Positions 39,215 through 52,991 of a stretch of DNA of 64,000 nucleotides are shown here, piece after piece. How positions within the stretch are numbered: position 1 is the stretch's first letter; every line of letters starts with the position of its first letter. The position numbers and the translations under genes are program-made. This DNA comes from Qipengyuania vesicularis (GTDB taxonomy: Bacteria > Pseudomonadota > Alphaproteobacteria > Sphingomonadales > Sphingomonadaceae), in NCBI RefSeq assembly GCF_019711415.1, contig NZ_JAIGNJ010000001.1, positions 365,001 to 429,000 on the forward strand, given 5' to 3'. The notes under the pieces were generated by a model. It made no database searches. It worked only from the letters and a program-made list of their open reading frames with translations, and was not told the origin of the DNA.

Positions 39215-40054
39215 CTATTCGAAAGCGATCAAGGCCGTCGGCGCCTGCTCGGTACGCGGGCTGATCTCCCAGACGAGCGCCTGTCCGCGCGCATTGGCGA
39301 CCGGCCCTTCGTCCGTGTTGTTGGCTAGGATCCGGCCATCGGTCACGATGGTGAAAGTCCCTTCCGGCACCACCATTTTGCCGATATCTTCCCCGTCGCC
39401 CTTTTCCGACATCTGGGCGAGACCGGCCATGCCGGCCATCATCCCCTGCATCGGGTTGCCGCCGCCCTGCGCGGCAAATCCGGGTGCATCGACGCGAACC
39501 TGCGCTTGGTCGCGCAGCACCACGGTGACGAACATATTGCCCATCGGCATCTTCTCGATGACCGGGAAGGCGAAATCATGCGTCATCCGACCCGATATGC
39601 GGAAGTCGACATCGAACAGACCGTCACCCTTGTAGGTGACCTCGTCCCAACCACGCTGGCGCGACAGCTTGGCGGCCAGTTCCTGGGCGGCTTCGGGGTT
39701 CGAGGGATCGATGCCGCCGAGAAAGGCTTTCATCTGCTCGGCTTCTTCGCGCTCCTCCGCGGCGCGGGCGCTTGCATTGGCATCCCATTCGGCGCGCTGT
39801 TCGTTGACCTCGGCCAGCGTGCATTCGCGCTCTTCGAAATTGTCGTCGTAGCATTCGGCTTCGAATTCTTCCGCCTTATTGCCCATCTCGGCGAGCTTGG
39901 AGAGCGCGAGCATCTGGATCTCGCCGTCATAACTGTAGGAGAAGCTGCCGTCTTGCATCAGCTGCAATTCGCTGGTGAAGGCACCCGGCGACAGCAGGCA
40001 GCCAGAAAGCGCCAGCGAACTTGCTGCTGCAAGACCGGCAGCGCGGATCTTCAT
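39215..40054 (-). CDS. Lipoprotein of unknown function
   Basis: A 279-aa protein starting MKIRAAGLAAASSLALSGCL, with the lipobox LSGC (Cys-19). The mature part starts with a beta-type segment (LQLMQDGSFSYSYDGEIQML). It continues with a highly charged helical region (NEQRAEWDANASARAAEERE with two nearby Cys, AECYDDN and ERECTLA) and ends in beta strands (GTFTIVTDGRILANNTDEG). I associate the pattern with conserved sphingomonad lipoproteins of unknown role. Upstream in-frame starts (GTG 40069, TTG 40075) sit closer to a GGGGGA site, so the start may be up to 7 codons earlier. Confidence 0.75.
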   Translation of the reverse strand: MKIRAAGLAAASSLALSGCLLSPGAFTSELQLMQDGSFSYSYDGEIQMLALSKLAEMGNKAEEFEAECYDDNFEERECTLAEVNEQRAEWDANASARAAEEREEAEQMKAFLGGIDPSNPEAAQELAAKLSRQRGWDEVTYKGDGLFDVDFRISGRMTHDFAFPVIEKMPMGNMFVTVVLRDQAQVRVDAPGFAAQGGGNPMQGMMAGMAGLAQMSEKGDGEDIGKMVVPEGTFTIVTDGRILANNTDEGPVANARGQALVWEISPRTEQAPTALIAFE

Positions 40055-40093
40055 CGAAATCTTGGTCACGTCCAAATCCCCCTGAAACGGATA

Positions 40094-40885
40094 TCAGCCT
40101 CGTGTAGCCACTGCATATAGCGCAATGGCAGCTGCGTTGGACACGTTCAGGCTTTCGATTTCGTTAGAGATCGGCAATTTCGCCAGAGCATCGCAATGCG
40201 TCTCGATATTGTGGCGCATGCCTTCGCCCTCGGCACCGAGCACGATAGCGACCGGACCTGCGGGCAGGGCTTCGGCGAAAGTGGTTTCGGTGTGGCCGGT
40301 GAGCCCGATCCGCCAGTATCCGGCCTCTGCCATCTCTTCCATCGCCCGGGCGAGGTTGACGACGCGTATCCATGGCAGCGTTTCGAGCGCGCCCGAGGCA
40401 GACTTGGCAATCACGCCGCCCTCGGGCGGGGCATGGCGGTCCTGGGTAACCAGCGCCGCCGCATTGAAGGCTACAGCCGATCGCATGATAGCGCCGACGT
40501 TGTGCGGGTCTGTCACTTGGTCAAGCACGACAATGGGGCGCGCCGGATCGCCGTCCAGGACATCGGAAAGGAACTGGTCTTCAAGCGCCGCGCATTCGAG
40601 CACAAGCCCCTGATGCGGTGCGTCCTTGGCGACGAGCCGAGCGAGGTCCTGCACATCGGCATACTCAACGGGGAAATCGGGCGGCAGCTCGCCGTCGAGC
40701 GAGGCGACCCCCTCGCGGGTGGCCCATAGCTTGCGGTGCTGGCGCTCGGGGTTCTTCAACGCTGCCTCGACCGCGTGGCGACCCCACAGGCGCACATGGC
40801 CTGCACTGGCGCGGCCGCTGCCGCGCCCGCCTTTCATGCGGCCCGCCCGGCCCCTCAATGCGCGTTTGCGTTCACCCTTTGCCAT
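40094..40885 (-). CDS. rlmB: SPOUT-family RNA 2'-O-methyltransferase, RlmB/TrmH type
   Basis: A 263-aa methyltransferase. A basic N-terminal tail (GERKRALRGRAGRMKGGRGS) and the small substrate-binding domain (HVRLWGRHAVEAALKNPERQ) precede the SPOUT fold. Its three motifs are visible: VVLDQVTDPHNVGAIMRSA, AIVLGAEGEGM, and IPISNEIESLNVSNAAAIALY recognised as LPISNEIESLNVS here. RlmB methylates G2251 of 23S rRNA; closely related enzymes act on tRNA or other rRNA sites, so the target is likely but not certain. The ATG at 40885 is used. The gene is divergent from tRNA-Tyr. Confidence 0.92.
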   Translation of the reverse strand: MAKGERKRALRGRAGRMKGGRGSGRASAGHVRLWGRHAVEAALKNPERQHRKLWATREGVASLDGELPPDFPVEYADVQDLARLVAKDAPHQGLVLECAALEDQFLSDVLDGDPARPIVVLDQVTDPHNVGAIMRSAVAFNAAALVTQDRHAPPEGGVIAKSASGALETLPWIRVVNLARAMEEMAEAGYWRIGLTGHTETTFAEALPAGPVAIVLGAEGEGMRHNIETHCDALAKLPISNEIESLNVSNAAAIALYAVATRG

Positions 40886-41040
40886 GCTTGAAGTCCTGTA
40901 ATCGTGTTTGCGTCGCGCTCCTGCCAGCGAGGGCATTGACAGGCAAGCGCCGCTTCGCCAAAGGGGCGCCTCTCGGCAGGGGATGCCAATGCGAATCCCC
41001 GCAAATTTCTCTTCGAACAAGAGAATTGGCGAACCGGTGT

Positions 41041-41126
41041 GGACAGGTGGCCGAGTGGTTAAAGGCAGCAGACTGTAAATCTGCCCGCGCAAGCGTACGC
41101 TGGTTCGAATCCAGCCCTGTCCACCA
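41041..41126 (+). tRNA. tRNA-Tyr (anticodon GTA), with encoded CCA
   Basis: Acceptor GGACAGG/CCTGTCC, class II long variable arm, anticodon stem CAGA/TCTG around CTGTAAA (GTA at 34-36), T-arm GCTGGTTCGAATCCAGC, and ACCA at 41123-41126. Its 3' part is the attachment site of the island that follows; the gene itself is intact. Confidence 0.97.
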
Positions 41127-41130
41127 CCCG
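41071..41130 (+). repeat. attL-like direct repeat (within tRNA-Tyr)
   Basis: The left copy of the 60-bp repeat covers the anticodon loop to 4 bp past the CCA end of tRNA-Tyr. Confidence 0.88.
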
Positions 41131-41223
41131 CCAAACCCGCAGAAAACCTTGATTTTACGGCCCCGCGAGGGGCCGTTTTGCGTTGCGCGTTAAGGTCGTC
41201 GAAGGGGCTGAAGAGATGTGCAA

Positions 41224-41246
41224 GTCCCCCCAAAGTTCCCCCAAAA
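41224..41246 (+). repeat. Tandem GTTCCCCCAAAA-type repeats, left end of the island
   Basis: Two adjacent 11-12 bp units (GTCCCCCCAAA, GTTCCCCCAAAA). The same tandem unit in the same orientation occurs at 43901-43923 near the right end. Their position about 100 bp inside attL and 60 bp inside attR resembles arm-type integrase sites (inference). Confidence 0.7.
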
Positions 41247-41355
41247 TGTGAAGTCGGATATCGCATCCTAAACCTTCCTCCAGTCCACGCTTGGCCTGAC
41301 TGAGGTGCTGCAAATAGGTAGAGTCGAGGTGCTGAGGCGCTTTCCGGAGAGACAC

Positions 41356-42267
41356 TCAGATCCTTTTTCGCCGCGATGGAAAGTGGCGCACCATGATGAG
41401 CTTCCTCCGGCCATGGTGCTCCCTGCGATCTGACCTACCGGACCGTGCGGTACCCTTGGTCATTCCGACGACCTTCCAGTTCGAGGCCAGATAGCAGGTT
41501 CCTTTGAACAGCTTTGGATCCACGAATGTTTCAGCCCATCGCAGTTCTACGCGGTAGTGCTTCCTCCAATGATTCATCGCATGCTTTGTCGCGACAGAAA
41601 GGATCCTTGACGCCAAGTTTGGCACTTGAACCCAGGGGAGAATTAGAAACCGGGTGTTGTTGACGCCCGCATGATGATCTGAGCCGCCCACAACATTTTC
41701 GTCGAGATAATTATCGCGTGGCTGAATTCGGAGACACGGATCCGCCCATGCGAGACAAGCGACCGGGCGCTCCCCGCAAAACACTATCTGCCTCAAATTT
41801 CTCCCGACAAGTGGCTTTCGGCCCAAATAATGGAATTGCTCGATTAGGCCGTTCCACAGGCGTGCTTCACATGGAGCGCCGACACCTTGAACCTTCAAGT
41901 CTTGGACGGGAGTGGCAATCGCTCTTTGGTCTAGATCTGCTATCTGTGCAGTCGCAAAGCCATTGTTGCGCTCAAGAGGTACTAACGGTGGCGGTAGCTT
42001 TACAAGGCCGATGTCCTCCAGTCTGCGCAGAACGTCGCGCATGGCGGACTCCTTCAGCTTGCCGTTTGGCTGGCGATAGGAGAGTTCCCGACAAAGAATC
42101 TGGCTGGCTTGTGTGCGTCCGCGACTACCTTCGAGAACTTTTCGTACTCGCTCCAATTTTTCGGGATCAAAAGTGAGACCTCGAATATGGACTTCATGGG
42201 AAGTGTCGGGATCATTCGGTATAGGCTCGCCGAGTTGTCTTTCATTGCGCTTTGCGTCGACTGACAT
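41356..42267 (-). CDS. DruA-like protein (DUF4338)
   Basis: A 303-aa protein of the DUF4338 family, which includes DruA of the Druantia anti-phage systems. Recognised conserved segments are LIEQFHYLGRKPLVGRNLRQ, ACLAWADPCLRIQPRDNYL, NNTRFLILPWVQVPNLASRI and ETFVDPKLFKGTCYLASNWK, with a basic C-terminus (SDRREHHGRRKLIMVRHFPS). The N-terminal 100 residues contain a helix-turn-helix-like region (RTQASQILCRELSYRQ). The frame is intact, with an AAGGATAGAG site before the ATG. In Druantia, DruA works with DruE and other proteins, none of which is here. Stand-alone DUF4338 proteins are also found on mobile DNA, and the biochemical activity is unknown to me. Confidence 0.82.
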   Translation of the reverse strand: MSVDAKRNERQLGEPIPNDPDTSHEVHIRGLTFDPEKLERVRKVLEGSRGRTQASQILCRELSYRQPNGKLKESAMRDVLRRLEDIGLVKLPPPLVPLERNNGFATAQIADLDQRAIATPVQDLKVQGVGAPCEARLWNGLIEQFHYLGRKPLVGRNLRQIVFCGERPVACLAWADPCLRIQPRDNYLDENVVGGSDHHAGVNNTRFLILPWVQVPNLASRILSVATKHAMNHWRKHYRVELRWAETFVDPKLFKGTCYLASNWKVVGMTKGTARSGRSDRREHHGRRKLIMVRHFPSRRKRI

Positions 42268-42408
42268 CTCTATCCTTGGCTGAAGAGAGGAACGAGTAAT
42301 ACCACTGCAAACCTATGTTCTTTCTTTTGGAATGCGAACCGCAAATCAGCAATTGCCCACGCCTTCGTTAGGGGTGTAGGTAGGATTCGATCAATCCCAC
42401 GGAGTTGC

Positions 42409-42663
42409 ATGTCTAGCGCGGTGCCAGTCGAATTTCGCAATGAGAGTGCGTTAAGGTTCTCCGACATTTCCAGCGAGGAATGGCGTGAGTATCATTTTGA
42501 GTCTGGGACGGTGGTTAGAATTCTAAACCCCCTCCGCCTTAACGTGAGTGCAAGCGGTGGCCATCGAATCTTCGATGCAAATGGGGAGTCACACTACATT
42601 CCGTCAGGATGGATACATCTCAAGTGGCAAGCGAAGCCCAATGCGCCACATTTTGTAAGATAG
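42409..42663 (+). CDS. 84-aa protein of unknown function in the island
   Basis: A small cytoplasmic protein starting SSAVPVEFRNESALRFSDIS, predicted mostly beta (TVVRILNPLRLNVSASGGHRI, then ESHYIPSGWIHLKWQA). It has no signal peptide or membrane helix. GGAG lies 4 bases before the ATG at 42409. Its stop is 18 bp before the 363-aa membrane-anchored protein, so they are probably one transcript, divergent from the DruA-like gene (141 bp between starts). I recognise no family; it may be an adaptor or sensor (inference). Confidence 0.65.
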   Translation: MSSAVPVEFRNESALRFSDISSEEWREYHFESGTVVRILNPLRLNVSASGGHRIFDANGESHYIPSGWIHLKWQAKPNAPHFVR

Positions 42664-42681
42664 ACATCAGGGGCACTTTAT

Positions 42682-43773
42682 TTGATCGTTCTGCTTTCTT
42701 CGGCACCACCGAACAGACCACGTTACTCTGATGACATCATTCGCGTCTTGGCTCAGCCTTTAGGCGGACAGATGCAATTCCGATATGATCGGCGTTGGAT
42801 GACCGATGAGCTTTGGGGGCGGATCGATCATGAGGGTCTCGCGGGTGAGTGGGGGGTTGCCTGCTTTCTTGCCCAGAATCCTCGGAGTGACCCGGACCAA
42901 GCAACGCCAGTAATCATCCCGCTCCGGTATGTGAGGACTATCCGAGCAGAGAAAATTGGCTCGTCCTGCTTGATCGTCTTTGAAGCCGGTCAATTCGCTG
43001 CAAATCTGACCGATTCCGACGTGCGTTCGCATGCTGCTCCTAGCGATCAAGCGAGCCTACCTGGTGTGGCTGCAAGAGATGATACGAAATACGCCTTTCA
43101 AGCGTGTCTGGCGCGCCCTCGAATATCGACAGACCTAGATTTGCGTGCCTTTGAGATAATTGTTGAACGGCTCAGCGATTGTTCCCCATTCGATAGCGAT
43201 GACACTGTCTTTTATGTGTTGTTTCGAGTCTCCAGAAAGCCAGCCCGGAGCTGGTTCGGCACGTGGCCTAAGGCGGAGAAGGTGGCGAGCGCCTCCTTTG
43301 GCGCCTTCGCGTTATCAAGCGGCCTCAACTATGAGTTTGAGGTCTATACCCTCAGCAATGCATCGGGCAGCTCATCGACGTCCGCGCCGGAAATCTCGCT
43401 GCAGATACTTCCGTTCGGGGATGATCTCAATTTCATCAGCTCCACCGAGAACACGATTGACTCACGATATGACGTAAAACGCTTTGTTTGCAGCTCAGAG
43501 CATTCGTTGGTTGGCCGCGTGAGCAGTTGCAATCTAGCCCTAGCTGGTCCGTCAGGCGTGCGAGCACGAGACATCACTGTCCCAATCATTCTCTCCAGGA
43601 ATGTTCTACTCGGCTGGACAAAATGGGCATTCTTAACGGCGGGTACGGCCCTCGCGGCTATCTCCGCGCTCATAGCGTCAGAGAAGGACTCTCCAGAGGC
43701 TATCATATCGATCGTTATCGGCGCGGCTCTCGCTGCTATCGCTGCTCTATTCCCGTCCATCAAAAAGTACTGA
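42682..43773 (+). CDS. 363-aa protein with two C-terminal membrane helices, function unknown
   Basis: No family recognised. Residues 1-300 are soluble and mixed alpha/beta (PRYSDDIIRVLAQPLGGQMQ, then RWMTDELWGRIDHEGLAGEW, later FVCSSEHSLVGRVSSCNLAL). The last 50 residues hold two hydrophobic helices (about 315-333, WAFLTAGTALAAISALIAS, and about 340-360, IISIVIGAALAAIAALFPSI) ending in KKY. A large cytoplasmic domain tied to the membrane by a helical hairpin is an effector-like layout in defence systems (inference). The start is a TTG at 42682 after AGGGG; the next in-frame ATG is at 42771. Codon use is unlike the chromosome around it. Confidence 0.7.
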   Translation: MIVLLSSAPPNRPRYSDDIIRVLAQPLGGQMQFRYDRRWMTDELWGRIDHEGLAGEWGVACFLAQNPRSDPDQATPVIIPLRYVRTIRAEKIGSSCLIVFEAGQFAANLTDSDVRSHAAPSDQASLPGVAARDDTKYAFQACLARPRISTDLDLRAFEIIVERLSDCSPFDSDDTVFYVLFRVSRKPARSWFGTWPKAEKVASASFGAFALSSGLNYEFEVYTLSNASGSSSTSAPEISLQILPFGDDLNFISSTENTIDSRYDVKRFVCSSEHSLVGRVSSCNLALAGPSGVRARDITVPIILSRNVLLGWTKWAFLTAGTALAAISALIASEKDSPEAIISIVIGAALAAIAALFPSIKKY

Positions 43774-43900
43774 ACGCTAACTTGTCATGCCGCTGACGAA
43801 CCGTTCAGAACCATCAGTCTAGGGGCGGGAGATCCAAAGTCTGCTACCCTTGGGATATTTAAGATACTGAAATATGGAAACAAAATCGCTTCGAATTCGA

Positions 43901-43923
43901 GTTCCCCCAAAAGTTCCCCCAAA
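43901..43923 (+). repeat. Tandem GTTCCCCCAAAA repeats, right end of the island
   Basis: Two adjacent units (GTTCCCCCAAAA, GTTCCCCCAAA), same sequence and orientation as at 41224-41246. The remaining non-coding DNA between the 363-aa gene and the attR copy holds nothing else that I recognise. Confidence 0.7.
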
Positions 43924-43980
43924 CTGAAATCGTGCAGAGATTGTGTCTGCATTTCAGTCCCTTAGGGCAGCAGATTAGGG

Positions 43981-44040
43981 GACTGTAAATCTGCCCGCGC
44001 AAGCGTACGCCGGTTCGAATCCAGCCCTGTCCACCACCCG
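43981..44040 (+). repeat. attR-like direct repeat (tRNA-Tyr 3' fragment)
   Basis: Matches 41071-41130 in 59 of 60 bases. Immediately upstream GGCAGCAGA also matches the tRNA, but an 8-bp insertion (TTAGGGGA) separates it from CTGTAAAT, so this copy cannot form a tRNA. Confidence 0.88.
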
Positions 44041-44110
44041 GCTCCTTCCGACATGAATGTTTCCGGTCGCTGGCAATCCTGGCAGCTTGGACCTATGATC
44101 GAGGCATGAA

Positions 44111-44140
44111 CGGTCACCCCTGCGGACAGGATGGTGACCG
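44111..44140 (+). promoter_or_regulatory. Perfect 8-bp inverted repeat upstream of the CadC-like gene
   Basis: CGGTCACC and GGTGACCG with a 14-base spacer, ending 21 bp before the ATG at 44162. It could be an operator for autoregulation or a leader hairpin. Confidence 0.5.
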
Positions 44141-44161
44141 CCTTCTTCAGCTTCGGGTTTC

Positions 44162-45733
44162 ATGACTAAGTTTACTTTCCTGGATTTCGACTTCGATAGC
44201 CTGTCGAACGAATTGCGCCGCGAAAACCAGCCGGTTCCGCTTCGACGCAAGGCATCACTCCTGCTGCGCGTATTCGTGAACAATCCCGGCCGGATCGTCA
44301 GCAAGGAGGTGATGGTCGAGGAGGTCTGGAACGGGCGGGTGGTCTCGGATGACGCCATCTACTCCCAGATCATGGCGCTTCGCCGGTTGCTCGATCAGCC
44401 AGGGGGCGGGCCATCGGTCATCACGACTGTTCACGGCCAGGGTTTCCGCTTCATGCCAAGCGTTACACGCCTGGCAAGTGCAGAATTGCGCGCTCAGGAT
44501 TTATCGCTTCAAGCAGCGGCCGAAACCGCTGAGATCGATGGCCCGCCGATCGTCGCGGTACTGCCTCTAAAGTGGCTGGGGCCTACCAGCGAACGCTCGA
44601 ACCTCGCGCTGGCAATCCCCGACGAGATCATCACGGGGCTGCAGAAGACACGCTACATCAGGATCATTGATCGCGGTTCGGCCTTCCGGTTCCTCTCGCA
44701 CGATGCGGCAAGCCATGAATTGCGCGAACGGCTTGCTGCCGACTACGCCCTGTCAGGTTCTCTCGAAGTGTGGGACGATAGGTGCAGCATCTCGATGGAA
44801 CTCGCAGACCTGCGCAGCGGGCGAGTAGTCTGGACCGACCGGTTCGAAGGGTCGGTCGCGGAAATCCACGCGGTCCGCGCCGAGGCGGTTCGGGGCGTGC
44901 TCCAGAACATCGACACGGTGGTACCCGAGAACGAAGCGCGGCGCGCGAGCAAGATTGCCGAAGACCAGCTATCGGCCTGGGAGCTCTACCATTTGGGACG
45001 GTCGAATGTTTTTGCAGTGACCAACAAGGACCTGCGCACGGGGCTCAGCCGGTTCGAAAGAGCTATGCAGCTGGATCCCGAATTCGCGCGCGCGCAGGCA
45101 GGCATCACCTTCTGCCTGTGGTCGATATCGATGGTCAATCTGGGAGACGATGACCGTCCCGGCCTCATCCGGAAGATGGAAGAAGCGACGCGGCACGCCC
45201 TGCGCCTCGACCCGAATGACCCGTTCGTGGCCGTAGCAACCGGGCGGGCGATGAGCGCATTGGGACATACCGACACCTCGATGGAACTCCTTACGCGCTC
45301 GGTGAAGATTGCACCGGCGAGCGCTTTTGCACACCTCTCGCTTGCATCAGTGCAAGCTCAGATCGGCCTTTTCGAAGAGGCGCTGGACCATTCGCAACTG
45401 GCGCTCGAGTTGAGCCCGCTCGATCCGAACTATCACCATATCTGCGCGTTAAGGTCGCTTTCGATGCTCGGGTTGGGTCGTTTCGAGGAAGCGGCAACTT
45501 GGGGAAGGCGCGGGATCGCGTTCGATAGTGCGCCGATCGCCCTGCTTGCAATAACGCTGACGAGCATGGTGAAGAGCGGGAACGATGAAGGGCTACAGAA
45601 GATAGTCGAGGAAATCGCGAGGGAGTATCCAGGCCTCACGCGCGAAGGGCTGAAAGAGCGTTTCCCGATCGCACGTCCGGATATGCTCGAGCTGATGACC
45701 GGCGCCTTTGAGAGGCAGGGACTCCTGTCCTGA
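44162..45733 (+). CDS. CadC-like regulator: winged helix + TolB-like + TPR
   Basis: A 523-aa soluble protein. Residues 1-100 form an OmpR/CadC-type winged helix (RRKASLLLRVFVNNPGRIVS, then SDDAIYSQIMALRRLLDQPG, ending TVHGQGFRFM). Residues about 125-260 are a TolB-like segment (IVAVLPLKWLGPTSERSN, DYALSGSLEVWDDRCSISME). The rest is TPR-like (RFERAMQLDPEFARAQAGIT, HALRLDPNDPFVAVATGRAM). No membrane helix separates the modules, unlike CadC. It lies 244 bp upstream of the giant RTX gene on the same strand and is a candidate regulator of it. It shares the TolB-TPR architecture with the TIR protein at 4520-6427. Confidence 0.87.
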   Translation: MTKFTFLDFDFDSLSNELRRENQPVPLRRKASLLLRVFVNNPGRIVSKEVMVEEVWNGRVVSDDAIYSQIMALRRLLDQPGGGPSVITTVHGQGFRFMPSVTRLASAELRAQDLSLQAAAETAEIDGPPIVAVLPLKWLGPTSERSNLALAIPDEIITGLQKTRYIRIIDRGSAFRFLSHDAASHELRERLAADYALSGSLEVWDDRCSISMELADLRSGRVVWTDRFEGSVAEIHAVRAEAVRGVLQNIDTVVPENEARRASKIAEDQLSAWELYHLGRSNVFAVTNKDLRTGLSRFERAMQLDPEFARAQAGITFCLWSISMVNLGDDDRPGLIRKMEEATRHALRLDPNDPFVAVATGRAMSALGHTDTSMELLTRSVKIAPASAFAHLSLASVQAQIGLFEEALDHSQLALELSPLDPNYHHICALRSLSMLGLGRFEEAATWGRRGIAFDSAPIALLAITLTSMVKSGNDEGLQKIVEEIAREYPGLTREGLKERFPIARPDMLELMTGAFERQGLLS

Positions 45734-45977: not shown

Positions 45978-48900
45978 ATGGCTGTGGCACGAAATTTTGA
46001 CGAAACGGACATTACCAACGAGTACGTCCGCACGCTCATCTACGGCACATACTACACGGGGACAATCAGCTTCTATCTGTCGGATGACGACACTGCCCTC
46101 GATGACTATGGCAATCCCACTGTAGGCGGCTGGGCAGCTAACAATTCCGACGACATGTTCCGACACGCGATAAACGCGTGGAGCGCGGTTGCCGATATTA
46201 CTTTCCAGGAAGTGACGGACCCGGCCGACGATCCGACGTGGACCGAGTATCTCGTGTCGGGCCAGAACTATGGTTACGGTGCCTATCATTGGACGCCGAA
46301 CAACAATGGCGACGGCGGCGCATACAACTCTTATTACGTAAACGCCTCGACCAACGTCGAGGGCGGCTACGGCCTCTACACCTTCCTGCACGAAATCGGC
46401 CACGCCCTCGGCCTCAACCACACTTTCGAGACCGATGGAGACGGCCCCTTCGCAGGTGTCGACGGTCAGAACGATGCGGGCGACAATAATCTGGGGTCGG
46501 GCCTCTATTCGGTCATGGCCTATGTCTTCCAGCATCCCGATCTCGACAGCGGAACGACCAGGGCCGGTTATGCCGCAACCCCGATGGCGTTCGACATCGC
46601 GGCGATCCAGGCGATCTACGGTGCGAACATGTCGACTGCTACCGGCGACGATGTCTACTATCTCCCCTCCAGTTCCGGCACTGAAAGCTGGATATGCATC
46701 TGGGATGTCAGCGGGACTGACGAGCTCAGCGCAGCCCTGTGCGATGGCGGCGTAACCCTCGATCTTCGCGCTGCGACCCTGCTCAACGAAGAGGGCGGTG
46801 GCGGCTGGGCGAGCTACCAGGATGGCAGCAGCGGCGCCGGTATCGTCTATGGCGGCTATACCATCGCAAATGGCGTCGTAATCGAGAATGCTACCGGCAG
46901 TTCCTATGCCGACAGCATTACGGGCAATGACGAAGACAACGTCCTCGATGGCGGCAATGGTGACGACACCATCAACGCCATGGGTGGCAACGACACCATC
47001 GATGGCGGTGCCGGTGCCGACACGATGATCGGCGGCACTGGCGACGACAGGTACTATGTCGACAATGCCGGCGATGTGGTCACCGAGAGTGCCGACGAGG
47101 GCACCGACCGGGTCTATACCTCGCTCGCGACCTATGTCCTGCCCGACAATGTCGAACAGCTCCGGACGACAGGAAACACCGCTGCGCGCGACTTTACCGG
47201 GAATGACCTAGACAACGTCATCGTCGGCTCGAGCTCGGACGACACGCTTCGCGGCGGCCTCGGCAACGATACGCTGAACGGCGATGGCGGATCCGACACA
47301 ATGATCGGCGGCGCCGGCGACGATACCTACCATGTGAATGCTGAGGGCGATGTCGTTACCGAACTGGCCGATGAAGGCACGGACACGGTCATCACGTCGC
47401 TTTCGACCTACACGCTCGGCGACAATGTCGAGAATCTTCAGTCGACCGGCTCCAGAGCACGAACTTTCACGGGCAATGCGCTAGATAACACTATCACAAG
47501 CGGCACCTATTCCGACACGCTGGACGGTGGTGCCGGAAACGATGTGCTCGATGGCGATGGCGGCGATGATACGATGATCGGCGGCGCGGGCGATGACACC
47601 TTCTACGTCGATACCGCGGGCGATGTCGTTACCGAACTGGCCGGCGAAGGCACGGACTCGGTCATCACATCGCTCTTGGCCTACACGCTGGGCGACAATG
47701 TCGAGAACCTGTCAGCCGCCGACAGCACCGGCAGCAGGACATTCACCGGCAATGACCTGGATAACACGATCTCCGGCACCGAGGACGACGACGTTCTCGA
47801 CGGTGGTGCGGGCGACGACGCGCTGGTCGGCGGCCTTGGCGACGACACCTACTACACCGACAGCGAAAACGACGTCGTCACCGAAGAATATGGCGAAGGC
47901 ACCGACACGGTCATCACGACGGCAAGCCGCTACGTTCTTGGCAACAATGTCGAAAACCTGACAGCTGGCAACAACCTCATCGCATACACCCTGGTCGGTA
48001 ATGACCTCGACAACACGATCACTGGCAGCACCAACGATGACACGCTGAACGGCGATGGCGGCGACGACACTATGGTCGGCGGGCAAGGCGATGACTTGTA
48101 TCACGTCAACTCCACCGGCGATGTGGTGACCGAACTGGAAGGGGAAGGCACCGACACTATCACGACCGCGCTGACCAGCTTTTCGCTGCAGGATCACGCC
48201 AACGTAGAGAACCTCACTTCGGTGCACACCAGCCGGAGCAGCGAATTCGAAGGCAACGCGCTCGACAATTTCATCTCGGGCAACGATGCCGACGACATCC
48301 TGCGCGGCCTCGATGGCAATGACATCCTCGACGGCGGCGCGGGTGCCGACCGCATGACCGGCGGGCTTGGCGACGACATCTTCTATGTCGACAATAACGG
48401 CGACACCGTCATCGAAAACGATGGTGAGGGCACCGATGAAGTCATCACCACCCTGACGACCTACACGCTCGTGGACCACGTCGAGAACCTTACCGCCGGC
48501 GATACCGTTTCGGACAATACGCTGACCGGCAACGCTCTCGACAACACCATCACCGGCGGCGATGGCGACGACGAGCTGGACGGCGGTGCGGGCGCGGACA
48601 CGCTGATCGGCGGCCTCGGCCACGACATCTATTACGTCGACAACATCGGCGACGTCGTAATCGAAAACGACGACGAAGGTGTCGACCATGTGATCACCTC
48701 GCTGACGACCTACACGCTCGGCGATAATGTCGATTACCTGACCGCTGGCGACACGGTTTCTGACAACACGCTCACCGGCAACGATCTCGACAACCTCATT
48801 ACCGGTGGTGACCGCAACGACATCATCGATGGTGGCGCGGGGACCGACTTCATGGTCGGCGGACTCGGGGACGATACCTATTACGTCGATGATGCGAGCG

Positions 48901-51900
48901 ACCTTGTCTCGGAAAACTTCGGCGAGGGCTTCGACCGCATCATTGCCTCGCTGGGGACCTATGCGCTGTCCGCCAACACCGAGGCATTGACCATCAATGC
49001 CAGCACTGCGGTGACCGCGACTGGCAATGCGGATGACAACGACATCGTGGTCAACCAGACCGGTTCTTCGGACTCGGTCTACGCCTATGGCCTGGAAGGC
49101 GCGGATACCATCACCATCGATGCCAGCGGCGACAACATCTACGCCTATGGCGGCGACGGCGACGACACGATCACCGTGACGGGGCTCGATGAAATCACCA
49201 TCGACGGCGGCACCGGTGCGGACGTGATGGACGCGACCGCCAGCGTCGGCGCGGAAATCACATTCTATGTCGATGACGAGAACGACACGATCCTGTTCGA
49301 CACGGCGACGGGCGCTTCGGTCTTCCTGACCGCGTCGAACTATGCGCTCGTGGAGGGCGTCGACTATGTCTATCTGGGCGGTTCTGGCGGCCAGACCGTC
49401 GTCGGCAGCGACACCGCGGCCGCATATTTCAATATCAATGCGTTCGACAGCGTGACTGGCGGCGCAGGAGACGACCGCTACTACATCACCGATGCCTCGG
49501 CGATCATCGTGGAAGCCGCAGACGGCGGCTATGACTACGTCCAGATCACCGGCGATATCGACTATACGGTCGCGGACAATATCGAGGAAGCGTACCTCAA
49601 CGGCGTCGGCACGCTGACGGGCAATGACGGCGCGAACATCCTGCGCGCAGACGCAGGCTCGACCATGGTCGGCGGGCTCGGCGATGACAGCTATTACGTC
49701 GTCGGCTCCGTGACCATTACCGAGAATGCCGGTGAAGGTACCGATACGGTCTATGTCCAGAACGACTATACGCTCGGGGCCAACCTCGAAAATATCGTTG
49801 CCGCAGCTGCCTACACCGGCAACCGCCTGATCCTGACGGGCAACGAGCTCGACAACCACTTCAGCTGGGAGACCTCGCAGGAACTGTCCTTCGCCTATGG
49901 CGGCGAAGGCAACGATACTTTCGATGCCTCGAATTTCGATGCGGACAGCTTTGTCGAACTCAACGGCGAGGATGGCGACGATATCATGATCGGCGGCGCG
50001 GGCTGGAACCAGTTCTTCGATGGCGCCGGAGCCGACACAATAATCGGCGGCTCGGGCACCAACCTGTTCTTCCTGTCCGATAATCTCAACACGATCACCA
50101 TCGACGAAAGCGGCTACAACGAGCTGACCCTCCTTACAGGGGTCACCCATTACGAGCTGCAGAACACCTACGACGAAGTCTGGATCCAGGATGAGGATGC
50201 CCATGTCATCGGATCGGATGGCGACGACAATTTTGTTTTTCTGAATGACAACCAGATCGTCGAAGGCGGTGCGGGTAACGACACTTACCATGTGTCAGAC
50301 GCGAATGTGACGGTTATCGAAACTGCCGATGGCGGCGATGCCGACTATGTCTGGACCAGCATGACCTCGTACGTCCTGCCCGATTTTGTCGAGGATGGTT
50401 ATTCCTCGGTCAGGAATTCGACCATCACCGGCAACGATCTCGATAACATACTCGAGATTTCATATTCCAGCTCAGCTTACGGCCTTGCCGGCGACGATTT
50501 CTTCATCACCAACTACGGGTCGGGTTCGGACGACACGATCGATGGCGGCGAGGGCAATGACACCATGTCCTATGCCGGCGCCTTTTCGGCGGTAACCGTT
50601 TCGCTCGCCCTGCAGGGCTCGGTGCAGGACACCGGTTCGGCTGGCATGGACACGCTTGTGAGCATCGAGAACCTGATCGGCGGCGACTATGACGACACGC
50701 TGACCGGCGACGACAACGCCAATTTCCTCGATGGCGGCGCAGGCGACGATACACTGGCAGGCGGCCTCGGCGATGACGTCTATTACGTTGAAGGATCGAG
50801 CGACACCGTTGTCGAGAATGCAGGCGAAGGGACCGATACCGTCTACGTACGAGGCGGCTATCACGCCATGTCGGACAATGTCGAAAATGCTGTCGGGGCT
50901 GATGAATACGACGGTTATGTGAGCATTGACGGCAACGAACTGGACAACTCGATGACTTTGTCGGGTCACCATTCGATCGCCTACATGGACGGAGGTGCGG
51001 GCAACGACACCCTCGACGGCTCCAACATCGAGGACGGCGGCGACGCCTATTTCAATGGCGGGGCCGGCGACGATATTCTTATCGGCGGGAGCGGCAACAA
51101 CGAGCTCGATGGAGGCGAAGGTGCCGACACGCTCTATGGCGGCCTGGGCGAAAACTACTTCTACGTGGACAGCAATGACGATGTCGTCGTCCTGATGGAC
51201 GGTGCAGAAGAGAACAACCTGGAAGTCACCGCTGCGTATTACGAAGTACAGGCGAGCTTCGATACGATTTCGACGCAAGCCACAGCCCAGCACATCATCG
51301 GCTCCGATAGCGATGACTACTTCAACGCCTTTGGAACAGATCACACCCTCGAAGGCGGAGCTGGAAACGACACATATGTCGTCTGGAGCGATACGACGAC
51401 GATCGTCGAGGCGGCGGATGGCGGCGATAGCGATACGGTGCAGGTCCGCTTCTCGGGCTATGTCTTGCCGGAATACGTCGAGAACGGCGAAGCCTTGGGT
51501 TCCGGAAACGGGATGACAGGCAACTCGCTCGATAACGATATCTATCTCTTCAGCGGCGGTTCGGCTTACGGCATGGATGGCGACGACACGCTTCACGGGT
51601 TCTCAGGCAATTACGACCTCTATGGCGGAACCGGCGACGACACGCTGCTTGCCAACACCGGCGACAATACGCTGGACGGCGGCGAAGACACTGACACGGC
51701 GAGCTACGAGAATGCCATTTCGGGTGTCGTCGTCTCGCTCGCGCTTCAGGGCGCCGCGCAAATCACCGGCTCAGGCAGCGATATGCTGATCGATATCGAG
51801 AACCTGACCGGCTCCGACTATGCCGACACGCTGACGGGTGACGATAACGCCAATGTGCTGAGCGGCGGTTTGAGCGGCGATGCGCTGAATGGCGAAGGCG

Positions 51901-52967
51901 GGAACGACATCATCTATGGCGGTGACGATGCCGACGTCCTAATGGGCGGCTCGGGCTGGGACACGCTTGACGGCGGCGACGGCGACGATCTGCTCGACGG
52001 CGGGAACGGTACCGATACCGCGAGCTACGGCTCGGCCTCGGCAGGCGTCACCGTTAGCCTCGCCGTGACCGATCCGCAGGACACGATCGGCGCGGGTATC
52101 GATGTCCTTGCCAACATCGAAAACCTTACCGGCTCCGACCATGCCGATACGCTTAGCGGTGATGACAACGTGAACACCATTCTCGGTGGACTCGTTGCCG
52201 ACATGATCGCTGGCGGCGGCGGATCGGATTATCTTTATGGCGAGGACGGCGATGATGCTCTCGAGGGCGGGGCCGGCTTCGACCGCCTGCTGGGCGGTGA
52301 CGGCGACGATGTGCTCACCGGTGGCAATGGCGGCGATTATCTGCGCGGCGGCAGCGGTGCCGATCTCGCCTATGGCGATGCTGGCAACGACACCGCCTAT
52401 CTCGACGACGGCGATGACATCGCCTGGGGCGGGGAGGGCGACGACCTTCTGAACGGCCTTGGCGACCACGACACGCTCTATGGCGAGGCGGGCGACGACC
52501 AGCTATATGGAACGAGTGGCCGCGATGAGCTCCACGGTGGCGATTACAACGACACGCTCGACGGCGGCGCGCATAGCGATACGCTCTATGGCGATGCGGG
52601 CGATGACATCATCATCGGTGGTTCGAGCTACGACCAGCTTCATGGCGGCACGGGCGCGGACATTTTCTGGTTCGCCGAGGGCGATACGGGCCGCTGGAAG
52701 GGCAATGCCGATGTCATCCACGACTTCAGCCAGAGCGAGGGCGACCTCATCGACCTGTCAGCAATCGACGCGATCGCGGGTGGCGGGGATGACGCCTTCA
52801 CCTTCGTAGGCGAGGCGGAATTCTCCGGCACGGCGGGCGAACTGCGTTTCTTCACCGAGAACGGCGATACCTTCGCCGCCGCCGATACCGATGGGGATGG
52901 TTTCGCCGACCTGCAGGTCAGGCTCGAAGGCCTCTACGACCTCACCAGCGCTGACTTCGTGCTGTAG
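45978..52967 (+). CDS. Giant RTX protein with an N-terminal M10 metalloprotease domain
   Basis: A 2329-aa, very Asp/Gly-rich protein without a signal peptide. The catalytic zinc motif HEIGHALGLNH is at residue 138, followed by the Met-turn SVMAYVFQHPD, so the N-terminal about 250 residues form a serralysin-like domain. From about residue 310 to 1000 there are about eight units of 83-93 aa, each with RTX nonapeptides (GGAGDDTYYVD) and a spacer ending in YTLGDNVENL. Further divergent units follow. The C-terminus (about 1940-2230) has dense RTX repeats and a terminal region (DVIHDFSQSEGDLIDLSAID) typical of type I secretion signals. A GGAAG site precedes the ATG. No exporter genes are in the window. 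Confidence 0.93.
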   Translation: MAVARNFDETDITNEYVRTLIYGTYYTGTISFYLSDDDTALDDYGNPTVGGWAANNSDDMFRHAINAWSAVADITFQEVTDPADDPTWTEYLVSGQNYGYGAYHWTPNNNGDGGAYNSYYVNASTNVEGGYGLYTFLHEIGHALGLNHTFETDGDGPFAGVDGQNDAGDNNLGSGLYSVMAYVFQHPDLDSGTTRAGYAATPMAFDIAAIQAIYGANMSTATGDDVYYLPSSSGTESWICIWDVSGTDELSAALCDGGVTLDLRAATLLNEEGGGGWASYQDGSSGAGIVYGGYTIANGVVIENATGSSYADSITGNDEDNVLDGGNGDDTINAMGGNDTIDGGAGADTMIGGTGDDRYYVDNAGDVVTESADEGTDRVYTSLATYVLPDNVEQLRTTGNTAARDFTGNDLDNVIVGSSSDDTLRGGLGNDTLNGDGGSDTMIGGAGDDTYHVNAEGDVVTELADEGTDTVITSLSTYTLGDNVENLQSTGSRARTFTGNALDNTITSGTYSDTLDGGAGNDVLDGDGGDDTMIGGAGDDTFYVDTAGDVVTELAGEGTDSVITSLLAYTLGDNVENLSAADSTGSRTFTGNDLDNTISGTEDDDVLDGGAGDDALVGGLGDDTYYTDSENDVVTEEYGEGTDTVITTASRYVLGNNVENLTAGNNLIAYTLVGNDLDNTITGSTNDDTLNGDGGDDTMVGGQGDDLYHVNSTGDVVTELEGEGTDTITTALTSFSLQDHANVENLTSVHTSRSSEFEGNALDNFISGNDADDILRGLDGNDILDGGAGADRMTGGLGDDIFYVDNNGDTVIENDGEGTDEVITTLTTYTLVDHVENLTAGDTVSDNTLTGNALDNTITGGDGDDELDGGAGADTLIGGLGHDIYYVDNIGDVVIENDDEGVDHVITSLTTYTLGDNVDYLTAGDTVSDNTLTGNDLDNLITGGDRNDIIDGGAGTDFMVGGLGDDTYYVDDASDLVSENFGEGFDRIIASLGTYALSANTEALTINASTAVTATGNADDNDIVVNQTGSSDSVYAYGLEGADTITIDASGDNIYAYGGDGDDTITVTGLDEITIDGGTGADVMDATASVGAEITFYVDDENDTILFDTATGASVFLTASNYALVEGVDYVYLGGSGGQTVVGSDTAAAYFNINAFDSVTGGAGDDRYYITDASAIIVEAADGGYDYVQITGDIDYTVADNIEEAYLNGVGTLTGNDGANILRADAGSTMVGGLGDDSYYVVGSVTITENAGEGTDTVYVQNDYTLGANLENIVAAAAYTGNRLILTGNELDNHFSWETSQELSFAYGGEGNDTFDASNFDADSFVELNGEDGDDIMIGGAGWNQFFDGAGADTIIGGSGTNLFFLSDNLNTITIDESGYNELTLLTGVTHYELQNTYDEVWIQDEDAHVIGSDGDDNFVFLNDNQIVEGGAGNDTYHVSDANVTVIETADGGDADYVWTSMTSYVLPDFVEDGYSSVRNSTITGNDLDNILEISYSSSAYGLAGDDFFITNYGSGSDDTIDGGEGNDTMSYAGAFSAVTVSLALQGSVQDTGSAGMDTLVSIENLIGGDYDDTLTGDDNANFLDGGAGDDTLAGGLGDDVYYVEGSSDTVVENAGEGTDTVYVRGGYHAMSDNVENAVGADEYDGYVSIDGNELDNSMTLSGHHSIAYMDGGAGNDTLDGSNIEDGGDAYFNGGAGDDILIGGSGNNELDGGEGADTLYGGLGENYFYVDSNDDVVVLMDGAEENNLEVTAAYYEVQASFDTISTQATAQHIIGSDSDDYFNAFGTDHTLEGGAGNDTYVVWSDTTTIVEAADGGDSDTVQVRFSGYVLPEYVENGEALGSGNGMTGNSLDNDIYLFSGGSAYGMDGDDTLHGFSGNYDLYGGTGDDTLLANTGDNTLDGGEDTDTASYENAISGVVVSLALQGAAQITGSGSDMLIDIENLTGSDYADTLTGDDNANVLSGGLSGDALNGEGGNDIIYGGDDADVLMGGSGWDTLDGGDGDDLLDGGNGTDTASYGSASAGVTVSLAVTDPQDTIGAGIDVLANIENLTGSDHADTLSGDDNVNTILGGLVADMIAGGGGSDYLYGEDGDDALEGGAGFDRLLGGDGDDVLTGGNGGDYLRGGSGADLAYGDAGNDTAYLDDGDDIAWGGEGDDLLNGLGDHDTLYGEAGDDQLYGTSGRDELHGGDYNDTLDGGAHSDTLYGDAGDDIIIGGSSYDQLHGGTGADIFWFAEGDTGRWKGNADVIHDFSQSEGDLIDLSAIDAIAGGGDDAFTFVGEAEFSGTAGELRFFTENGDTFAAADTDGDGFADLQVRLEGLYDLTSADFVL
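46905..48990 (+). repeat. Tandem RTX plus spacer units of about 83-93 aa in the giant protein
   Basis: Recurring spacer ends (DNVENL-type) fall near 47141, 47420, 47690, 47941, 48196, 48472, 48720 and 48970, intervals of about 250-280 bp. Each unit also carries a GGxGDDT-x-GG RTX block. Confidence 0.85.
51790..52660 (+). repeat. C-terminal RTX nonapeptide block of the giant protein
   Basis: Dense degenerate GGxGxDxLx repeats (for example GGDGDDVLT, GGNGGDYLR, GEAGDDQLY) lead into the secretion-signal region. They bind calcium in the family. Confidence 0.88.
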
Positions 52968-52991
52968 GCTGATCGCAGGAGAGGAATAGAA

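Follow-up and report, generated by a model that had tools for sequence, protein, structure and literature searches.

A three-gene island without an integrase at tRNA-Tyr of Qipengyuania vesicularis, which may carry a DruE-free cassette related to Druantia

How does a segment of only three genes, none of them a recombinase, come to lie at the 3′ end of a tRNA gene, and what might those genes do together? The question is raised by a 64,000-nucleotide stretch of Qipengyuania vesicularis DNA (assembly GCF_019711415.1, contig NZ_JAIGNJ010000001.1, positions 365,001 to 429,000), termed the window here. In the reading favoured below, to which a probability of about one half is given, positions 41131-43980 are a horizontally gained island without an integrase in the 3′ end of tRNA-Tyr. 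The island would resemble a cis-mobilizable element (CIME) and carry a compact, DruE-free defence cassette related to Druantia. Its parts, in window coordinates, are as follows.

41041..41126, forward strand: tRNA-Tyr(gta), the intact target gene, with its 3′ end inside attL (ARAGORN)
41071..41130, forward strand: attL, one copy of a 60-bp direct repeat (repeat search)
41225..41248, forward strand: left inner repeats, one degenerate and one intact GTTCCCCCAAA unit, candidate integrase arm sites
41356..42267, reverse strand: short DruA-family protein, 303 aa, PF14236 (Pfam)
42268..42408, no strand: divergent intergenic region of 141 bp, equal in length in Parerythrobacter
42409..42663, forward strand: orf2, 84 aa, a predicted small beta-barrel with phage relatives
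42682..43773, forward strand: orf3, 363 aa, with two helices predicted in its hydrophobic C-terminus, a recurrent neighbour of druA or druE
43903..43926, forward strand: right inner tandem repeats, two GTTCCCCCAAA units, candidate arm sites
43981..44040, forward strand: attR, a 3′ copy of tRNA-Tyr, 59/60 (repeat search)

The boundaries are set by a 60-nt direct repeat (41071-41130 and 43981-44040) that is 98% identical (59/60) with a start-to-start spacing of 2910 bp, just as a preliminary description of the sequence had stated. The next best match of this 60-mer within the window is 17 nt long, inside a tRNA-Pro gene. At the right end the copy is a 3′ fragment, in which ARAGORN calls no further tRNA gene; the pair is therefore not the ordinary tandem tRNA duplication that had been considered as an alternative. 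The island contains the druA-like gene, orf2 and orf3 only, and none of the three has a recombinase, relaxase or conjugation match in searches with Pfam, PADLOC, NCBIfam and PHROG models. The duplicated ends, the intact tRNA-Tyr and this gene content bear out the view that an element integrated at the tRNA 3′ end and has no integrase inside. The composition noted beforehand also holds, as the guanine-plus-cytosine (GC) content is 0.49-0.56 within the island and 0.56-0.67 in most windows of the flanks. At third codon positions, GC is 0.53-0.57 in the three island genes, compared to 0.82 in lon, 0.72 in the neighbouring wHTH-TPR gene and 0.75 in the RTX-like gene.

The inner repeats had been described as tandem at both ends. 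This is true of the right end, but the left end has one intact and one degenerate unit, so the description was slightly generous. The GTTCCCCCAAA 11-mer occurs four times in the 2.71-Mb genome, always on the forward strand and in three of the four cases at the island ends, while a control pattern occurs 0 times forward and once in reverse. The double-repeat pattern was not found in viral contigs. In the genus, two tandem TGTGGGGAAGG-type units precede the integrase in four of six congener stretches inspected, and from these repeats we infer that those of the window are integrase arm sites.

To place the island within its genus, 55 stretches that include the tRNA-Tyr place or lie downstream of it were taken from 54 of 59 congeners (G006, G013, G024, G029 and G042 being left out). 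The tRNA-Tyr 3′ end is contained in 53 of them; it is lacking in L045, and L058 represents the far end of the G038 region. Five of the 53 loci (L048, L060, L073, L079 and L081) are shortened by contig ends to 1.8-5.2 kb. Island DNA is matched in 0/55 stretches, and tblastn finds none of the three island proteins there. The absence of the insert from the tRNA-Tyr loci of 53 congeners, together with the finding of a DruA-like protein in just one of 396 genomes of the order (its own), supports the horizontal gain that had been proposed, and the three genes do not occupy this place in the relatives read. The empty-site comparison suggested beforehand was answered in part: the insert is absent at 53 loci, but the congener search gave no clean empty site that retains both flanks. 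On the right flank, congeners match only the tRNA repeat, part of the start of the RTX-like gene (G033 and G025, in both cases away from the tRNA) and a few short, weak segments.

The same site is often used by other elements. Within 2.5 kb of the tRNA end (tblastn, 55 stretches), an arm-binding tyrosine integrase is found in 15 stretches, a FabH-like protein in 21, a DUF6538-type recombinase in 3 (one at 25% identity only) and none of these three kinds in 16. A Pfam check of one example per kind gave Arm-DNA-bind_3 with Phage_integrase, ACP_syn_III, and DUF6538 with Phage_integrase, respectively. What the locus shows is a three-gene cassette with attachment ends and no integrase, at a tRNA-Tyr site of which the genus makes frequent use. 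The genome itself has four Phage_integrase matches, of which one is a frame of only 231 aa, one is P4-like and two are, as we take them from size and sequence, XerC and XerD. As to the movement in trans that had been entertained, the genome has no close match to the tRNA-Tyr integrase of the congeners; the P4-like integrase is 27.5% identical to it.

Outside the genus, the same three genes occur in the same divergent layout, at a different site, in Parerythrobacter. DNA identity to the window is 72.6% over 41366-43779, and nothing else of 40001-45000 is matched. A serine recombinase, a cytosine methylase and a ThiF/JAB gene share the 17-kb stretch that holds the Parerythrobacter copy, the DruA of which is 74% identical to that of the window. 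The three-gene set is thus kept together at different sites in two genera. Ratios of nonsynonymous to synonymous substitution (dN/dS) between the two copies are 0.10 for druA, 0.09 for orf2 and 0.07 for orf3, those of druA and orf3 being rough because dS is high (1.8 and 2.6). These ratios indicate that all three genes are under purifying selection.

These results bear on how the island arose. CIMEs, as PMC5704250 describes them, keep their attachment ends, are devoid of integration and transfer genes, and arise by decay of that kind. The island is alike in keeping attL and attR without such genes, and it differs in that no parental integrative and conjugative element (ICE) is known for it. 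The island could be viewed as what decay has left of a larger prophage or ICE, its three genes being chance survivors with no joint role. The missing integrase, the retention of both attachment ends and the single base by which the 60-bp ends differ agree with this, as does the decay described for CIMEs. However, chance survival does not sit well with the recurrence of the set, in unchanged layout, at another site in Parerythrobacter, with low dN/dS in all three genes, or with the linkage of orf3 to druA in a distant phylum. This explanation is quite unlikely. The deletion remnant entertained in the preliminary description may therefore hold for the vehicle but hardly for the cargo, which is shared in its layout and under purifying selection. 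The island is presumably also smaller than a typical CIME.

What, then, is the cargo? The best reading of the sequences is a small defence cassette related to Druantia, in which effector and control roles can be assigned tentatively. The 303-aa protein matches PF14236 (DruA, DUF4338) with an E value of 1.8e-20, above the Pfam cut-off. It has a Pfam Mom match (E 0.0066, 16.6 bits) that falls below the cut-off of 27.1, and it matches the Mom-like phrog_1384 with an E value of 1.2e-5. These weak profile matches liken it to Mom-like DNA modification proteins and the GNAT fold, and DUF4338 is called a GNAT domain in PMC10853773. No relative of the short DruA was found in phage records, and one weak relative is present in a viral contig (L152, 27%).

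The relatives of the short DruA on plasmids suggest a further possibility, namely that it is an accessory protein of a transposon and the cassette transposon-derived. On a Thiodictyon plasmid (L111, 3926-5260), a DruA domain is fused to a DDE transposase (DDE_Tnp_1), and on a second plasmid a DruA relative lies upstream of genes annotated as a site-specific integrase and an IS91 transposase. Over residues 131-292 of the query, the window DruA, identity to the ISAs1-type transposase-DruA fusion is 40%; the window protein differs in being free-standing, with no DDE domain match. Moreover, no transposase match was found in the island with Pfam, PADLOC and NCBIfam models, and it is bounded by the att repeats, not by the inverted repeats that were found. 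No transposase was noticed, by eye only, beside the unit in the six orf3 loci described below. A transposon origin is very improbable. The literature searched for links of ISAs1 with DruA, or of DruA with GNAT, gave nothing relevant by title.

The argument for defence comes chiefly from the company that orf3 keeps. Six orf3 loci were accepted: the window, Parerythrobacter (L096), Novosphingobium (L093/L097), G254 (L094), a Zixibacteria metagenome-assembled genome (MAG; L098) and G768 (L103). They come from searches of 396 genomes of the order (four with a match, own included, one dropped), of 398 genomes of the phylum (three with a match, own included, one dropped) and, by seed patterns, of a species-level contig collection (three loci, one being the Novosphingobium locus again, whose contig equals contig 4 of G259 in length). 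The matches dropped were G102 (E 4.4e-4, residues 233-355 only, in an alanine-rich frame) and G753 (E 9.4e-4, 57 positions of the membrane part only). By tblastn, orf3 or relatives are found in no plasmids or phages and are confirmed in no viral contigs. Identity to the window orf3 is 71% in Parerythrobacter, 39% in Novosphingobium and 22% in G768.

At five of the six loci a DruA gene lies within about 0.5 kb of orf3, and at the sixth, Novosphingobium, where no DruA was noticed by eye, orf3 abuts DruE1. In G254, orf3 and DruA1 (PADLOC 1.6e-119) overlap by 4 nt, and in the Zixibacteria MAG a 20-nt gap separates orf3 from DruA1 (PADLOC 3.6e-87). G768 has orf3 and orf2 beside DruA1, DruD1 and DruE1, while the order in Novosphingobium is orf2-orf3-DruE1, followed by a weak DruD match (1.2e-4) and a NERD-helicase gene. 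Relatives of orf3 therefore stand beside druA or druE at all six accepted loci, window counted, in line with the defence-type cargo that had been proposed from the window sequence.

The island shares with Druantia type I a DruA-family gene that matches PF14236 and the association of orf2 and orf3 with DruA1, DruD1 and DruE1 in G768 and with DruE1 in Novosphingobium. It differs in having no other Druantia genes: DruB, DruC and DruD have no match among the three island genes, to which that search was confined, and the genome has no DruE1 match. In addition, the short DruA falls outside the PADLOC models, and orf2 and orf3 have no above-chance match in PADLOC or Pfam. A DruE1 search at E≤1e-10 gave matches in G768 and G259 and none in the other four genomes, those of the window, of Parerythrobacter, of G254 and of the Zixibacteria MAG; the test is a loose one since it was also positive in 5 of 14 control genomes, and two of the four negative assemblies carry no completeness figure. 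A DruA-orf3 unit free of DruE thus appears to recur, the Zixibacteria MAG included. That orf3 is itself a DruD was considered and rejected, as G768 has a separate DruD1 downstream and the orf3 proteins match no PADLOC model. No mechanism for Druantia type I was found in the open-licence literature covered, in the available portions of PMC12458937 and PMC13192584, and an orf3-DruA unit is described neither there nor in the corresponding portions of PMC10853773 and PMC5704250. Since DruA is known chiefly as a component of a large system of many genes, a recurring DruE-free unit, if true, would be a small handle on its role.

The third gene, orf2, is the one with relatives in many phages. It matches phrog_27874, a family of unknown function (E 3.7e-9), and has no NCBIfam match in the window copy. 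It shares one reading frame with orf3, with a single TAG between them, and the same two-gene split, with the stop at the same place after orf2, is found in Parerythrobacter and Novosphingobium. The two genes therefore do not look like one broken gene, and that possibility was rejected. Where compared, orf2 is conserved better than its partners, with identities to the window of 87% in Parerythrobacter, 65% in Novosphingobium and 64% in G768. In bacterial genomes (289 from the class, 49 from the family), only the own gene was found, and its position beside orf3 is seen at four loci that were found through orf3, so that the sample is biased. Among 50,697 phage records, 41 have relatives with the window query and 42 with the G768 query, duplicate records of one phage included. 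The carriers include Pootjesviridae, Emdodecavirus, an Autographiviridae phage of Caulobacter, Erythrobacter phage XM05 and a Vibrio phage. Relatives are also present at five viral-contig loci, of which L113 and L114 look like one region copied. Neither orf3 nor DruA was found beside an orf2 relative in ten regions (nine phage, one plasmid) by annotation and ORF search.

Since orf2 has such relatives, the cassette could instead be a phage-derived unit for anti-restriction or DNA marking, in which the short DruA is Mom-like, orf2 is a captured helper, and mobile DNA is protected rather than phages stopped. The weak Mom and phrog_1384 matches of DruA point in this direction, as do the phage relatives of orf2. 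In one viral contig (L115, 6651-7324) an orf2 relative overlaps an ORF that is Mom-like by eye; the family match of that ORF, however, is phrog_24928, of unknown function, and no like ORF occurs in the other orf2 regions tested. This account leaves orf3 unexplained, with its place beside DruE and DruD in G768 and beside DruE in Novosphingobium, and the orf2 tree shows no phage-to-bacterium direction. In that tree the bacterial rows need three changes, and a single origin is compatible with it. A phage-derived marking unit is unlikely.

Under the defence reading, the cassette would consist of a DruA-family GNAT-type protein, the small beta-barrel orf2 and a membrane-anchored orf3. A hydrophobic C-terminal region with at least two peaks is found in all six orf3 proteins, that of Novosphingobium having an extra hydrophobic peak near residue 55; with the layout and the strong conservation of orf2, this suggests an effector with a small control partner. 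DruA may sense or mark invading DNA or its replication, and orf3, with a soluble N-terminal part and two membrane helices, may act as an effector at the membrane. As for orf2, it may restrain the system by binding to orf3 or DruA, or it may link the two. Its phage relatives would in that case act as mimics that silence the system, and their presence suggests counter-defence; alternatively, orf2 could be a captured phage protein of other use, with which the tree is compatible. The full scheme, a DruE-free unit of DruA and a two-helix effector checked by orf2, serving both alone and as an add-on to Druantia type I, with orf2 mimics in unrelated phages (mostly of Alphaproteobacteria), is rather doubtful as a whole. 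No “anti-Druantia” literature was found among open-licence papers. If true, the scheme would add two gene families unnamed in the libraries searched and allow counter-defence to be tested with public phage genes.

Several points weigh against the defence reading, in addition to the rough dN/dS values, the lack of a two-flanked empty site, the loose DruE1 test and the Thiodictyon fusion mentioned above. The short DruA matches no PADLOC DruA model in either the window or the Parerythrobacter copy. The fold of orf3 is poorly predicted, with a mean pLDDT (predicted local distance difference test) of 59.8, and only six orf3 loci are known here, window counted. At two of them (L094 and L098) orf2 was not found. 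The 954-aa gene that G768 has between DruA1 and DruD1 is matched by no PADLOC model, which leaves DruB and DruC unrecognised there. Finally, a separate DruA1 search matched 5 of 299 phylum genomes, and no orf3 was found in the short surroundings of the two of these five loci that were read (L105 and L106).

Neither the predicted orf2 fold, a candidate Sm/Hfq-like barrel, nor that of orf3 has a Foldseek match at E≤0.001, and the window orf3 has no match above chance to Pfam, PADLOC, NCBIfam or PHROG models. The Zixibacteria orf3 (L098, 8001-9062) matches phrog_30351, of unknown function, over residues 5-98 (8.7e-6, compared to 0.14 for the window orf3), and distant phage relatives of the N-terminal part may therefore exist. 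In G768, a 1733-aa gene lies upstream of the orf3-Druantia locus (L103, 3576-8777). An orf2-like gene on large Variovorax plasmids (L123, 5914-6126) is an exception in having no orf3 just before it; the gene that does precede it was tried as an orf3 and rejected, with an hhalign probability of 0.8%.

Other features of the neighbourhood and of related loci were also recorded. In G038 (L058, L059), a DUF6538 recombinase adjoins tRNA-Tyr, and an att-like sequence (31-33 bp, about 90%) occurs a second time at a distance of about 20 kb from the tRNA; this is probably a larger island at the same site. In G001 and G053 (L091, L092), tRNA-Tyr is inverted relative to a spoU-type gene, unlike in most congeners. 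G025 has a wHTH-TPR gene, 34% identical to the right-hand neighbour of the island, at most about 100 bp after the tRNA, and in G047 no more than about 90 bp separate tRNA-Tyr from the tRNA-Thr region that follows it, which starts near 52990 in the window. To the right of the island, 45978-52967 is a repeat-rich frame of 2329 aa, RTX-like by eye and followed by tRNA-Thr; only its start matched two congeners well in the searches made. The P4-like integrase of the genome (G000 C3 near 23 kb, L131) lies beside tRNA-Thr(cgt) and tRNA-Cys(gca), and the Parerythrobacter cassette is at most about 8 kb from a tRNA-Thr/tRNA-Cys pair of the same kind.

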